Origin: Demequina subtropica
GTDB lineage: Bacteria; Actinomycetota; Actinomycetes; Actinomycetales; Demequinaceae
Direction of reading: 5' to 3'
DNA length: 64,000 bases
Assembly: GCF_000971235.1 (NCBI RefSeq)
Contig: NZ_BBMB01000005.1
Location: 1 to 64,000 of the forward strand
Under the pieces are notes generated by a model that was given only the letters and a program-made list of their open reading frames with translations, was not told where the DNA came from and ran no database searches. This document shows positions 49,746 through 54,647 of the stretch, one piece after another. How positions within the stretch are numbered: the stretch's first letter is position 1; each line of letters starts with the position of its first letter. The translations under genes were made by a program, and so were the position numbers.

Positions 49746-51539
49746 ATGAGCCAGCCCTCGCACACCGACGACGCCGCGAACATCGTCGACCTCATCTCGC
49801 AGGCGTGGCGCACCCACGCCGACCGCGTGGTGATGCGCTACACCGACGCGGACGACGCGTGGATCGACGTCACCGGCGCGCAGGCCCAGGCCTGGGTCAC
49901 CGAGGTCGCGAAGGGGCTCATCGCGCGCGGGATCGAGCCGGGACAGAGCGTCGGGATCATGGCGCGCACGCGCATCGAGTGGTCGATCCTCGACGTCGCC
50001 ATCTGGACCGTGGGCGCGCTCCCCGTCCCCATCTACGACACGTCGTCGGCCTCGCAGATCGACTGGATCACGTCGGATGCCGACATCGCGGTGCTGTTCG
50101 TCGAGACCGAGGCGCACGCGGCGCTCGCCCACCAGGTGGCGAGCGACCCCGAGAGCCCGCTGCGCGAGATCCTCGTGATCGACCGTGGCTGCGTCGACGA
50201 CCTGCGCGCCGCGGGCACCGGGATCCCTGACACGCTCGTCGCGGAGCGGGCGGCGCTCGCTACGCTCGAGGACCCGGCCACGATCGTGTACACGTCGGGC
50301 ACCACCGGCCGCCCCAAGGGCGCCGTGCTCACGCACCGGAACTTCGTGGTGCACACGCGGGGCATCCATGTGGAGCTCGAGGACGTGCTGCTCCGGCCCG
50401 AGTCGAGCTCGGTGCTCTTCCTCACGCTCGCGCACTCGCTCGCGCGGCTGGTCGAGGTGGTGCTGCTCGCGGGCGGCACGACCATCGGCTACTGCCCCGA
50501 CACGCGCAAGCTCGTGCCGTACATCGGGTCCTTCCACCCCACGCTGCTGCTCGCGGTGCCGCGCGTGTTCGAGAAGGTCTACAACGCGGCCGAGCAGAAG
50601 GCCGCCGCCGGCGGGAAGGTGAAGATCTTCCGGTGGGCCGCGAAGCAGTCCATCGACTACTCGCGCGCGCTCGACACGCAGGCCGGCCCCTCGTTCGCCC
50701 TCAAGGCGCGTCACGCGGTGGCTGACCGGCTGGTGCTCGCGAAGATCCGCGAGGTGCTGGGAGGCAAGGCCGTCCACGCCATCTCGGGGTCCGCCCCGCT
50801 CGGCGAGCGTCTGGGCCACTTCTACAACGGCCTCGGCCTCCAGGTGATGGAGGGGTACGGCCTCACCGAGGTCACGGCCGCGGCCCACGTGAACCGCACG
50901 ACCAGGTCCAAGATCGGCACCGTCGGCCCCGCCCTGCCGGGCTTCGAGACCGTCATCGCCGAGGACGGCGAGGTGCTCATGCGCGGCGACATGCTGTTCC
51001 AGGGGTACCACCGGAACCCCGAGGCGACCGCCGAGGCGATGCGCGACGGGTGGTTCCACACGGGCGACATCGGGCAGCTCGACGACGAGGGCTTCCTCAC
51101 GATCACCGGCCGCAAGAAGGAGATCATCGTGACCGCGGCGGGCAAGAACGTCGCGCCCGCGGTGCTCGAGGACCGCCTGCGCGGCTACGCGCTCGTCAGC
51201 CAGTGCGTGGTCGTGGGCGAGGCGAAGCCCTTCATCGGCGCGCTCATCACGCTCGACGAGGAGGCCCTGCCGGGCTGGCTCACCAGCCACGGGCTGCCCA
51301 CGATGCCGGTGGCCGAGGCCGCGACCCACCCCGTGGTGCGCGAGCACCTCGACAACGCCGTCACCAGGGCGAACGGCGCGGTGTCGCGCGCCGAGTCGAT
51401 CCGCCGCTGGGAGATCCTGCCCACCGACTTCACGGTCGAGGCGGGGCACCTCACGCCGTCGCTCAAGGTCAAGCGCGCGCAGGTGCTGCGCGACTTCGCG
51501 GCGGACGTCGAGGCGCTGTACACGACGGCGACACGCTGA
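49746..51539 (+). CDS. Long-chain fatty acid--CoA ligase
   Basis: This 597-residue AMP-forming ligase activates fatty acids to acyl-CoA via an acyl-adenylate. The P-loop is ATIVYTSGTTGRPKGAVLTH near residue 180. The A5 motif is VMEGYGLTEVTAAAHVN near 370. GWFHTGDIGQLDDEGFLTITGRKKEII (read in parts) spans A7-A8, and a C-terminal Lys lies in LTPSLKVKR. It resembles the FadD15 group of actinobacteria. It starts at ATG 49746; the upstream gap is shared with the divergent ROK gene. It ends at the 51547-51580 hairpin. Confidence 0.94.
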   Translation: MSQPSHTDDAANIVDLISQAWRTHADRVVMRYTDADDAWIDVTGAQAQAWVTEVAKGLIARGIEPGQSVGIMARTRIEWSILDVAIWTVGALPVPIYDTSSASQIDWITSDADIAVLFVETEAHAALAHQVASDPESPLREILVIDRGCVDDLRAAGTGIPDTLVAERAALATLEDPATIVYTSGTTGRPKGAVLTHRNFVVHTRGIHVELEDVLLRPESSSVLFLTLAHSLARLVEVVLLAGGTTIGYCPDTRKLVPYIGSFHPTLLLAVPRVFEKVYNAAEQKAAAGGKVKIFRWAAKQSIDYSRALDTQAGPSFALKARHAVADRLVLAKIREVLGGKAVHAISGSAPLGERLGHFYNGLGLQVMEGYGLTEVTAAAHVNRTTRSKIGTVGPALPGFETVIAEDGEVLMRGDMLFQGYHRNPEATAEAMRDGWFHTGDIGQLDDEGFLTITGRKKEIIVTAAGKNVAPAVLEDRLRGYALVSQCVVVGEAKPFIGALITLDEEALPGWLTSHGLPTMPVAEAATHPVVREHLDNAVTRANGAVSRAESIRRWEILPTDFTVEAGHLTPSLKVKRAQVLRDFAADVEALYTTATR

Positions 51540-51546
51540 CAGACGA

Positions 51547-51580
51547 CCCTGGGGGCACGCGGTGCCTGATGCCCCCAGGG
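51547..51580 (+). terminator. Terminator hairpin after the acyl-CoA ligase gene
   Basis: CCCTGGGGGCA (51547-51557) and TGCCCCCAGGG (51570-51580) form a perfect 11-bp stem with a 12-nt loop, 8 bp after the stop codon. It abuts the GTGGCACCAC element that begins at 51584, so part of it could instead be an operator. Confidence 0.7.
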
Positions 51581-51583
51581 GTA

Positions 51584-51601
51584 GTGGCACCACAAGTCGG
51601 G
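51584..51601 (+). promoter_or_regulatory. Shared 18-bp upstream element, copy 1
   Basis: GTGGCACCACAAGTCGGG ends 58 nt before the ATG at 51660. An identical 18-mer stands at 52073-52090, 61 nt before the next gene's start. The left half contains GTGG-N2-CCAC dyad symmetry. Likely a promoter or regulator-binding site common to both genes. Confidence 0.6.
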
Positions 51602-51659
51602 GCTGTCCGGGCGCGGCCGATCCGCCGAGCCTGGAGGCACCACCGACCCGGAGGACACC

Positions 51660-51953
51660 ATGCCCTACCTCATCTCCACCCCGTCAGCACCCGACAGCGC
51701 GACCGCGTCCGTGACCCGCGAGCTGCCCATCGCCCGCTCGCACGTGATCCCGGCGCCCGTCGGCGCGCGCTTCGCCCGCGCCGCGGCCGCTGAGACCCGG
51801 ACGCGGCTCTACCGCCGGGCCCTGCGCCCGCGATACGCCGTGGGTGCGCGCTTCCCGCGACGCGACGCGGCGGACAGGGCCGAGCTCGCGCTCGTGCTCG
51901 TCCCGCTCGGCTCGCCGCGACCGCGACCGGTCGGGGCCCGCTTCCCCCGCTGA
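51660..51953 (+). CDS. Small basic protein with three VGARF repeats, 97 aa
   Basis: I do not recognise this protein. It starts at ATG 51660 with a good CGGAGGA ribosome-binding site. Three copies of VGARF-[AP]-R occur (PVGARFARA near residue 33, AVGARFPRR near 61 and PVGARFPR at the very C-terminus). They are separated by Arg/Ala-rich segments, and Cys is absent. Repeats ending in Arg raise the possibility of a processed peptide precursor or a nucleic-acid-binding tail, but nothing confirms either. Its upstream element is shared with the FAD oxidase gene that follows 198 bp later. Confidence 0.5.
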   Translation: MPYLISTPSAPDSATASVTRELPIARSHVIPAPVGARFARAAAAETRTRLYRRALRPRYAVGARFPRRDAADRAELALVLVPLGSPRPRPVGARFPR

Positions 51954-52072
51954 CCCGGACCCGCCGACACGGCCCGGAGGCCTGTCCGCCCTCGACGACG
52001 CCCGCCGCCCGCTTGGGGCCGCGGGCATCGTCACGCTCCCGCGGCATCGCGTGCCCGATGCCCCCCGCTCGG

Positions 52073-52090
52073 GTGGCACCACAAGTCGGG
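52073..52090 (+). promoter_or_regulatory. Shared 18-bp upstream element, copy 2
   Basis: Second exact copy of GTGGCACCACAAGTCGGG, 61 nt before the FAD oxidase start at 52152. The preceding nine bases (GATGCCCCC) are also shared with copy 1. Confidence 0.6.
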
Positions 52091-52151
52091 TCTGGTGGGA
52101 CGAATCGGACGAGGCGAGCATGATCCGGAATCCAACCCGGAGGTTCCCACC

Positions 52152-53603
52152 ATGTCCCTGTCCACCGATGCGCCCGCGCTCACCGAGCCCGAGTGCACCA
52201 CCGTCTCCAACCCCCGTCGCACGACGCTCGCGGGCGGCATCGCCGGCACCGCCCTCGGCACCGCGCTCGACGACCTCGCCGCGCGCCTCGACGGCGGCAT
52301 CGTCCGCCCCGCCGACCAGGACTGGGACGCCGCGCGTGCCGCGTGGCAGCTCGGGGTGGATCAGCACCCCGTGGCCGTGGTGCTCGCCGCGTCCGAGGCC
52401 GATGTCGCCCGCACGCTTCGGCTCGCCACGCGCCTCGGCGTACGGGTGGCGCCGCAATCCTCGGGCCATGGCGCCGTGGCGCTCGGTCCGCTCGAGGGCG
52501 CCATCCTGCTGCGCACGAGCGCGCTCTCGACCGTGTCGGTCGACGCCGTCGCCCGCACCGCGACCGTCGGTGCGGGCGCCACGTGGGGCGACGTCGCGGA
52601 CGCCGCCGCGCCCCACGGGCTCGCGGGTCTGGCGGGCTCGTCACGCACCGTCGGCGTCGTCGGCTACTGCCTCGGCGGAGGGCTCGGCTGGCTGGGACGC
52701 CTCCACGGGCTGGGCGCAGGATCGATCCTGTCCGCGCGTGTCGCGTTGCCCGGCGGCGCCGTCGTGATCGCCTCGGCGTCCGAGCACGCCGACCTCTGGT
52801 GGGCGCTGCGGGGCGGCGGCGGGGCGGGCGTGGTCACCGAGCTGACGCTCCGCCTGGTCGAGGTCCCCGACCTGACCGCCGGCACCCTGTGGTGGCCGCG
52901 TGCGCGCGCCGCCGAGGTCCTCAAGGCCTGGGCACGCCTCATCCCGGTCCTGCCGCGCGAGATCACGACCGTCGCGCGCGTCCTGACCTTCCCCGACATC
53001 GAGGAGCTCCCGCCGCACCTGCGAGGAGCGCAGATGGTGCTCGTGCAGGCGGCCGTCGTAGGCTCGGCCGCTCTCGCCGACCGCCTGCTCGCGCCGCTCC
53101 GTGGGCTCGAGCCGGTGATGGACGACATCGCGCCCGTCTCCCCCGACGCGCTCGGCCACCTGGCGATGGACCCGCCCGACCCGTCGGCGGGCGCCGCGGA
53201 GGGCGTGGTCCTCGCAACATTCGGCGAGGCGGCCGTCGACGCATGGCTCGAGGCGCTCGACGGCCCTGCGTGCGCGGGAGTCGTGGCGGCGGATCTCCGC
53301 CAGCTGGGCGGGGCCCTGTCTCCAGAGTCCGGCCACGATGCGGCGCTCACCGGGCTCGCGGGCGCGGTCGCGGCGGTCGCCGTCGCGCCGGTGACGCCCG
53401 TGGCCGACGCCGCAGCCGCCGCCCAGGCGGTCGCCGCGGCGCTCGCAGCGCTCGCGCCCTGGGCGAGCGCGCACCAGTACGCGAACTTCGTCGAGCAGCC
53501 CGCCGACGAGGAGACGCTCGTGGGCACCGCGCACGACAGGCTCGACACGATCCGTCTGTCGTACGACCCGGACGGCACGGTGCTCCGCCGCCACGGCGGC
53601 TGA
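52152..53603 (+). CDS. FAD-linked oxidase (PCMH-type, berberine-bridge-like)
   Basis: This 483-residue flavoprotein has a PCMH FAD-binding domain. ADVARTLRLATRLGVRVAPQSSGHGAVAL (read in parts) provides the His usually bonded to FAD. AGATWGDVADAAAPHGLAGLAGSSRTVGVVGYCLGGGLGWLGR follows, again read in parts, then WWALRGGGGAGVVTELTLRL. The C-terminal HQYANFVEQ corresponds to the BBE domain. The second covalent Cys position appears as VVGYCLGGG. The substrate is unknown (sugars or secondary metabolites in relatives). It starts at ATG 52152 with a CGGAGG site and shares its upstream element with the small VGARF gene. Confidence 0.9.
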   Translation: MSLSTDAPALTEPECTTVSNPRRTTLAGGIAGTALGTALDDLAARLDGGIVRPADQDWDAARAAWQLGVDQHPVAVVLAASEADVARTLRLATRLGVRVAPQSSGHGAVALGPLEGAILLRTSALSTVSVDAVARTATVGAGATWGDVADAAAPHGLAGLAGSSRTVGVVGYCLGGGLGWLGRLHGLGAGSILSARVALPGGAVVIASASEHADLWWALRGGGGAGVVTELTLRLVEVPDLTAGTLWWPRARAAEVLKAWARLIPVLPREITTVARVLTFPDIEELPPHLRGAQMVLVQAAVVGSAALADRLLAPLRGLEPVMDDIAPVSPDALGHLAMDPPDPSAGAAEGVVLATFGEAAVDAWLEALDGPACAGVVAADLRQLGGALSPESGHDAALTGLAGAVAAVAVAPVTPVADAAAAAQAVAAALAALAPWASAHQYANFVEQPADEETLVGTAHDRLDTIRLSYDPDGTVLRRHGG

Positions 53604-53725: not shown

Positions 53726-54643
53726 ATGCGCGCTGTCGAGCCGCGGATGGTCTTCGTCGGCGGGGCCCACCGGAGCGGCACCACGGTGCTCGCGCAGGTC
53801 ATGGCCGCATCGCCCGAGCTCGCGGGGCTGGTCGGCACCGGCGTGCCGATGGACGAGGGCCAGCACCTGCAGAGCGTGCTCCCCACCGCAGCGGCCCTGG
53901 GCGGTGCCGCGCGCTGGGCCCTGGACCCCCGGGCGCACGCGGTCGAGGCGGATCCCGGCGATCGCGCCGCGATGCGCTCCGCGATCTCCGACGCCTGGCA
54001 GCCCTTCTGGTCCTCGGATGCGGCGTTGCGGGTGGAGAAGTCGCCGCCCAACGTCACGCGCATGCGCTTCCTGCAGTCGCTGTGGCCCGATGCACGGTTC
54101 ATCGTCATCACACGGCACCCCATGATCCAGTCGCTCGCCATCCAGAAGTGGGACCACTCCCTGCCGGGCTTCCTGCCCAAGCTGGGCCTCGGCATCGACA
54201 AGACCCTCGAGAACTGGTGCGAGATCCACGACATGCTCGCGGCGGACGCTCCGCACCTCGACCGCCTGCTGGTGCTGCGCTACGAGCACCTCATGGCGGA
54301 CCCGCAGGGCGAACTCGCGAAGGTCTCGGACTTCCTCGAGCTCTCGGAGCCGCTCGACGCGGATCGCATCCAGCCGAGCCGCGGTGACACCTACCGCACA
54401 TTTGTCGAGGGCCAACGGGACCGGCGGTGGGGGCCCCACGTCCCCGTGATGGCACCGAAGCCCTTCACCACCGCTCGACGCCGCGCCGCGTTCCGCGCGA
54501 GCTGGGAGGCGGTGAGCAGGTACGACGCGCTTACAGGCCGCTACTCGCGCCTCGCCCGACGCTTCGAGGAGCGCGCGCGCACGCACGGCTACTCAATGCT
54601 CGACCTTGACGCGGTCGCCGCGTTCCCCGCGCACGGCGCATGA
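53726..54643 (+). CDS. Sulfotransferase family protein
   Basis: This 305-residue PAPS-dependent sulfotransferase has the 5'-phosphosulfate loop MVFVGGAHRSGTTVLAQVMAASPEL near residue 8. It has the EKSPPN segment and the 3'-phosphate motif FIVITRHPMIQSLAIQKWDHSL near 130, then LLVLRYEHLMADPQGELAKVSDFLEL. Such cytoplasmic enzymes sulfate glycolipids, polysaccharides or metabolites. The acceptor here is unknown. It starts at ATG 53726 with AGG upstream. Isolated between accessory genes, it is a candidate horizontally acquired gene, though its base use looks like its neighbours. Confidence 0.85.
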   Translation: MRAVEPRMVFVGGAHRSGTTVLAQVMAASPELAGLVGTGVPMDEGQHLQSVLPTAAALGGAARWALDPRAHAVEADPGDRAAMRSAISDAWQPFWSSDAALRVEKSPPNVTRMRFLQSLWPDARFIVITRHPMIQSLAIQKWDHSLPGFLPKLGLGIDKTLENWCEIHDMLAADAPHLDRLLVLRYEHLMADPQGELAKVSDFLELSEPLDADRIQPSRGDTYRTFVEGQRDRRWGPHVPVMAPKPFTTARRRAAFRASWEAVSRYDALTGRYSRLARRFEERARTHGYSMLDLDAVAAFPAHGA

Positions 54644-54647
54644 CCCC

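Follow-up and report, generated by a model that had tools for sequence, protein, structure and literature searches.

The window is a 64,000-nucleotide stretch of Demequina subtropica DNA. The locus studied here reads as an AMP-binding (fadD-like) gene, a small gene preceded by a short element, a flavin oxidase gene preceded by the same element, and a gene that by eye resembles a DNA-processing gene. The 18-mer GTGGCACCACAAGTCGGG occurs in exact copies on the forward strand at 51584–51601 and 52073–52090, ending 58 nt before the ATG of the small gene at 51660 and 61 nt before the ATG of the oxidase gene at 52152. The original prediction had given these copies, coordinates and gaps, and re-reading the sequence bore all of them out. 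Each 18-mer is part of a 22-bp element on the same strand, GTGGCACCACAAGTCGGGGCTG at 51584–51605 and GTGGCACCACAAGTCGGGTCTG at 52073–52094, and the Demequina consensus of the element is GTGGCACCACAASTCGGGKCTG. Even with three mismatches allowed, only these two 18-mers matched in the window, where 0.12 matches were expected and two matches were reached in one of 100 shuffles. The shared extension further upstream is present at both copies but is longer than first described. It reads GTGCC-N-GATGCCCCC and lies on the forward strand at 51562–51576 (GTGCCTGATGCCCCC) and 52051–52065 (GTGCCCGATGCCCCC), starting 22 bp before each copy of the element, and variants of it are found 5' of the element in relatives. 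A hairpin with an 11-bp stem follows the acyl-CoA synthetase gene at 51547–51580 (forward strand; RNA fold of 51540–51662) and overlaps the first upstream block. It is a possible transcript end without a T run; T-tract terminators were sought and none was found.

The small gene (51660–51953, stop included, forward strand) encodes 97 amino acids with three GARF motifs, 18 arginines and no lysine, and is preceded by the ribosome-binding site GGAGG at 51650–51654. Its annotation is based on this site, the orthologs, pN/pS and composition. The proteins of the six orthologs have 90–98 residues with 14–20 arginines and no lysine, and each has three GARF motifs that lie 27–30 residues apart, the last near the C-terminus. 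The repeats are (V/I)GARFP(R/H)-like and outlast the diverging linkers. Values of pN/pS of 0.29, 0.37 and 0.56 in the three closest gene pairs speak for a protein-coding gene; distant pairs reach values of about 1. The protein has no Pfam or NCBIfam match, its structure model is of low confidence (pLDDT 64, pTM 0.41) and gave no significant fold match, and no relative was found in viral contigs. Across the order, with 12 candidates scored per listed genome, the protein was found in 6 of 396 genomes, all of them Demequina. This sample, if it is the same as the one searched for the 18-mer, holds 35 of the 47 family genomes; none of the 12 family genomes outside it has the element before an oxidase. 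A literature search found nothing on the element or the GARF protein, and the letters VGARF appeared in two papers with titles on influenza antibodies and calf virology.

The oxidase gene (52152–53603, stop included, forward strand) encodes a FAD-dependent oxidase/oxygenase of 483 amino acids, as judged from Pfam, NCBIfam and PDB relatives. A mechanical list of open reading frames placed its start at GTG 52095; ATG 52152, which together with its GGAGG at 52139–52143 is conserved in relatives, was adopted instead. The protein matches Pfam FAD_binding_4 (3.5e-22). The nearest NCBIfam models are BagK/FevA1 and BagG/FevA2, both below cut-off; the match to BagK/FevA1 (5.2e-66) reaches 222.9 bits against a cut-off of 800, so the protein falls outside that family as defined. 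Its nearest solved relatives in the PDB are mitomycin radical oxidase and EncM, which align over most of the length with E values of 1e-45 to 4e-36. A sulfotransferase gene (Sulfotransfer_3, 7.5e-25) lies at 53726–54646 on the forward strand, between the oxidase gene and the conserved gene that follows. In the nine other oxidase-bearing genomes a motif search found none at that place.

A close ortholog of the oxidase (73–100% identity) is present in 10 of the 47 genomes of the family, and the element precedes it in all ten at 61–62 nt from the ATG. The small gene is present in six genomes, each time with the element 58–60 nt from its ATG, and over both genes and all Demequina copies the distance is 58–62 nt. 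Eight of the ten genomes match the 22-bp consensus throughout, and G008 and G019 each differ from it by one base. In the ten oxidase promoters 14 of the 16 core columns are invariant; one of the two varying columns is G or C, and the other has a single A-to-G change in G019. In the oxidase genes only 12 of 185 fourfold-degenerate columns are invariant, with at most five in any 16 consecutive ones. This difference between core and fourfold columns argues for selection rather than chance, and its binomial value of 2e-15 is indicative only, as the columns share one tree. The flanks of the element have six invariant columns in the 43 bp upstream and 15 in the 38 bp downstream. In an alignment of 16 promoter rows, the next shared sequence after the element is a partly invariant AGC.TGG 26–27 nt past the core, and the CCCGGAGG ribosome-binding region is also shared. 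The two promoters are similar beyond the element, and this similarity may partly reflect their shared descent.

The element is nearly restricted to these two promoters. The window's genome (G000; 3,075,577 bases in 23 contigs) has five sites within three mismatches of the 18-mer, namely the two exact copies and three sites with three mismatches each, and no further copy with two or fewer mismatches was found in its 3.08 Mb. Each of the three weaker sites lies within a called ORF, the caller being a crude one based on GC bias that may also call antisense frames. In the ten oxidase-bearing genomes, the 16-mer core with up to two mismatches gave 54 sites. The promoter copies account for 16 of them (15 exact, one with one mismatch); among the remaining 38, all have two mismatches except one, which has a single mismatch. 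Sixteen of these 38 were examined; 15 lie in called ORFs and one is intergenic (L138). The position of the L134 site within its locus differs from the one used by the script, but it is covered by the same ORF. A reversed-pattern control gave more matches than the true pattern in all ten genomes, which places the non-promoter sites at chance level. The original prediction had proposed a scan of the genome and its relatives, and had held that copies scattered inside genes would count against it. The scan found the element before both genes across the genus, and elsewhere only partial matches at chance level and a single 21-of-22 match.

In the 396 genomes sampled from the order, the 18-mer with no more than one mismatch has 21 sites in 15 genomes. 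Besides the 16 promoter copies there is one site in G012, and two other genera contribute the remaining four. Of the latter, L154 was opened and lies in a called ORF; the reversed control also matched in many genomes of the sample. The exact 20-bp form GGCACCACAASTCGGGKCTG was found in 12 stretches of the GTDB collection, ten from Demequina and two from unrelated MAGs, in a scan that may leave out the window's own records. The 22-mer with up to three mismatches has 20 sites in the 47 family genomes, and 16 of them are the promoter copies. Of the other four, three have three mismatches and lie in called ORFs (two in G023, one in G007), and the fourth, in G012, has a single mismatch. As the reversed control reached 64 matches in this search, the three-mismatch sites are uninformative. 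The site in G012 (L159; G012:C1:675449-675470, minus strand) is an inverted 21-of-22 match outside any credited gene; it adjoins a tRNA-Thr gene and lies 48 bp ahead of a gene whose product looks secreted. This genome has no oxidase match at E ≤ 1e-20, and the site could be either a stray occurrence or a further target.

Our data suggest that the small gene and the oxidase gene are probably switched together by one regulator. The original prediction had attributed the repeated element to common control by one regulator or a specialised sigma factor. Shared control has strong support, with the element and its distance conserved far beyond fourfold sites, and we tentatively favour the regulator over the sigma factor. 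With a probability of about 0.6, the 22-bp element is the binding site of one transcription factor that acts on two single-gene transcripts. The element would then be the operator of a trans-acting factor, most likely an activator rather than a repressor, and the GARF-repeat gene and the oxidase gene would be transcribed separately and co-induced by it. A simple consensus scan of 51500–52200 found no sigma-70 hexamers (TTGACA/TATAAT-like, 16–18 nt apart), and this is compatible with an activator-dependent promoter. AGCCTGG at 51628–51634 (forward strand), 26 nt past the 16-mer core before the small gene, has three invariant columns (A, T and G) in the 16-row alignment and is a possible -10 or start region. 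The same alignment places AGCATGATC at 52117–52125 (forward strand), again 26 nt past the core, before the oxidase gene; it has no full sigma-70 match, and the CATGAT within it is a putative -10-like hexamer. Both -10 assignments are weak, the one for the small gene more so. If the -10 does lie in AGCMTGG 26–27 nt downstream, the centre of the element would be about 45–48 bp before the predicted transcription start, and an activator bound there could stand in for the missing -35.

As originally stated, no regulator gene is adjacent, and this holds among the called genes of the window. Demequina has eight FAD-B paralogs that are 38–42% identical to the oxidase, and each is divergent from a gene for a LuxR protein of 373–385 residues. 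That related oxidases have their own regulators, in eight of eight cases, lends support to the element being an operator. One of the LuxR neighbours was scanned and has a GerE domain and as a protein is related to BagY/FevT, and six further ones are 68–77% identical to it. The FevT-like LuxR protein is found in 8 of the 47 family genomes, each time beside a FAD-B paralog. Profile models A1 (E ≤ 1e-30) and A2 (E ≤ 0.01) detected none in G000, and the FevT-like protein was rejected as the factor because it was not found there even at the looser threshold. G000 has ten GerE matches, of which by eye eight are response-regulator-like or LAL and two are sigma-factor-like. Distribution was tested for one of these proteins, of LAL type; it occurs in five of the ten element genomes and in two of the 37 others, which is the wrong distribution for the factor. 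A resemblance of the element to the operators expected in the intergenic regions of the LuxR/FAD-B pairs was also considered and dropped. In an ungapped comparison with mononucleotide shuffles as the control, the best of eight LuxR-paired intergenic sequences was equalled by 9% of shuffles and the rest by 49–95%. The best dyad of the element was equalled by 56% of shuffles, and no inverted repeat as expected of LuxR/NarL-type sites was found in it. The negative regulator searches, the ordinary dyad and the non-significant likeness to LuxR-paired intergenic sequences weaken the case for an operator.

The paralog loci have features of their own. The promoters of L049, L050 and L055–L058 have a common ATCCCAYANTT-TGGGG and a later GGGAT, a pattern that is likely the operator of the FevT-like LuxR protein. 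In L048 (G021), four tandem TTGTGGGGGCAC repeats lie between the LuxR gene and the FAD-B paralog, at about 1255–1320 in the orientation of the oxidase. In other families of the order, LuxR-like proteins lie by eye beside 3 of the 19 oxidase homologs listed (L118, L123 and L128). The homologs L113, L114, L115, L117, L119, L120, L122 and L125 of family f19 have another upstream pattern, by eye roughly CCCTGA, about 20 bp and CACTGA. Of the ten element genomes, the six without a LuxR/FAD-B pair (G000, G006, G010, G014, G015 and G020) have the small gene and the four with the pair (G008, G019, G024 and G025) lack it. Mutual exclusion of the small gene and the pair was rejected as a conclusion, as the tree offers only two independent contrasts (sign test p 0.5).

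The element could be read in other ways. The element might be the -35 side of a promoter for an alternative sigma factor of ECF type, with AGCMTGG or a nearer sequence as the -10. The near-fixed distance to both starts, the failure to find a sigma-70 promoter, the conserved columns 26–27 nt downstream and at least two ECF-like proteins seen by eye in G000 (L109 and L110) are consistent with this. However, conservation runs through a single, nearly invariant block of 22 bp and does not fall into two hexamers 16–18 bp apart, and a sigma factor with two sites per genome would have a very small regulon. ECF promoters have an AAC-type -35, and none is apparent in the element. We consider this explanation unlikely. 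It is also conceivable that the element acts in the leader RNA, where its TCGGG side would pair with the CCCGGAGG ribosome-binding region until a ligand or protein freed translation of both genes. A consensus fold does pair element columns 14–18 with ribosome-binding columns 66–70 in 15 or 16 of the 16 leaders, and the spacing to the start codon is nearly fixed. Yet none of the eight pairs shows a compensatory change, although six of them never vary and are thus uninformative. The oxidase leader of the window folds no better than shuffles (z 0.69), and the value of -1.92 for the small-gene leader is attributed to the upstream hairpin. Rfam gave no family above threshold, its only hits in 51400–52300 being sub-threshold P37 matches at 51978–52033, outside the element. 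In addition, GGCACCACAA is conserved as much as the pairing part. Control by the leader RNA is quite improbable in our view.

Another reading places the element at the boundary of a recombining cassette, in which the small gene between direct repeats is gained, lost or swapped and the repeat is kept as a crossover site. Where the small gene is present (six genomes), 609–663 bp separate the fadD-like gene from the oxidase ATG, as against 123 (G008), 124 (G025), 152 (G024) and 162 bp (G019) in those with a single element. G020 also has a mosaic appearance. Its sequence is nearest to G010/G015 as far as element 1 (0.88–0.97) and once more before element 2; in five of six windows of columns 200–440, within the small gene, G014 is nearest (0.82–0.88). 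Against this, the three windows from element 1 to column 200 have no consistently closest genome and in the window after them G000 comes slightly nearer than G014, leaving no clear switch point there, and an AU test on the small protein did not reject a G010/G015/G020 clade (p 0.17). The element is intact 61–62 nt from the oxidase ATG in the four genomes that lack the cassette, no recombinase was seen by eye among the genes called nearby, and ordinary homologous recombination in conserved sequence would suffice. Loss or exchange of the small gene as a unit, with the oxidase retaining its own element, is possible, but conservation of the element as a crossover site is very unlikely. Finally, the two exact copies could be due to chance or to a recent, functionless promoter duplication. 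The similarity of the promoters beyond the element makes a common origin possible, but the 14 invariant core columns stand beside oxidase genes that differ at 26–44% of synonymous sites (15 pairs among six of the ten genomes), and the probability of this explanation is negligible.

With the element read as the operator of one factor, the locus appears to be a minimal regulon, in which one 22-bp element with at most two clear targets per genome is conserved in ten species. Through it an uncharacterised repeat protein, restricted to the genus, is linked to a FevA/EncM-type flavin oxidase, and this is the first functional lead for that protein. The three GARF repeats adjoin the flavin oxidase gene, and one may speculate, as a long shot, that the EncM/FevA-like oxidase, being co-regulated, acts on the GARF protein as its substrate or needs it as an obligatory partner. 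The two would then belong to a genus-restricted, element-bounded cassette, possibly for a new kind of ribosomally synthesised, oxidatively modified peptide (RiPP) with repeated cores.

Known systems resemble this locus in part. According to one paper (PMC6692506), the bag, fev, gri and nsp clusters share the BagK/FevA1/GriA/NspA and BagY/FevT/GriT/NspT genes. Like these, the window oxidase, the FAD-B paralog L049 and its divergent LuxR neighbour score on the NCBIfam models BagK/FevA1 and BagY/FevT, although far under the cut-offs (222.9 of 800 bits for the window oxidase and 171.2 of 700 for the LuxR protein). Unlike them, the window oxidase has no LuxR gene alongside, and the FevT type was not found in G000. 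We found no report of a FevT operator in the literature with which the element could be compared. EncM and mitomycin radical oxidase are the nearest solved sequence relatives of the window oxidase, but the genes called in the 44–64 kb part of the window, inspected by eye, show no apparent biosynthetic cluster. As for the promoters, activator-dependent class II promoters have a site that overlaps the -35 or lies just above it. The element differs from such sites in having no significant dyad, and its factor and start site are predictions here. Like them, it is conserved and precedes a promoter region in which no -35 is recognisable.
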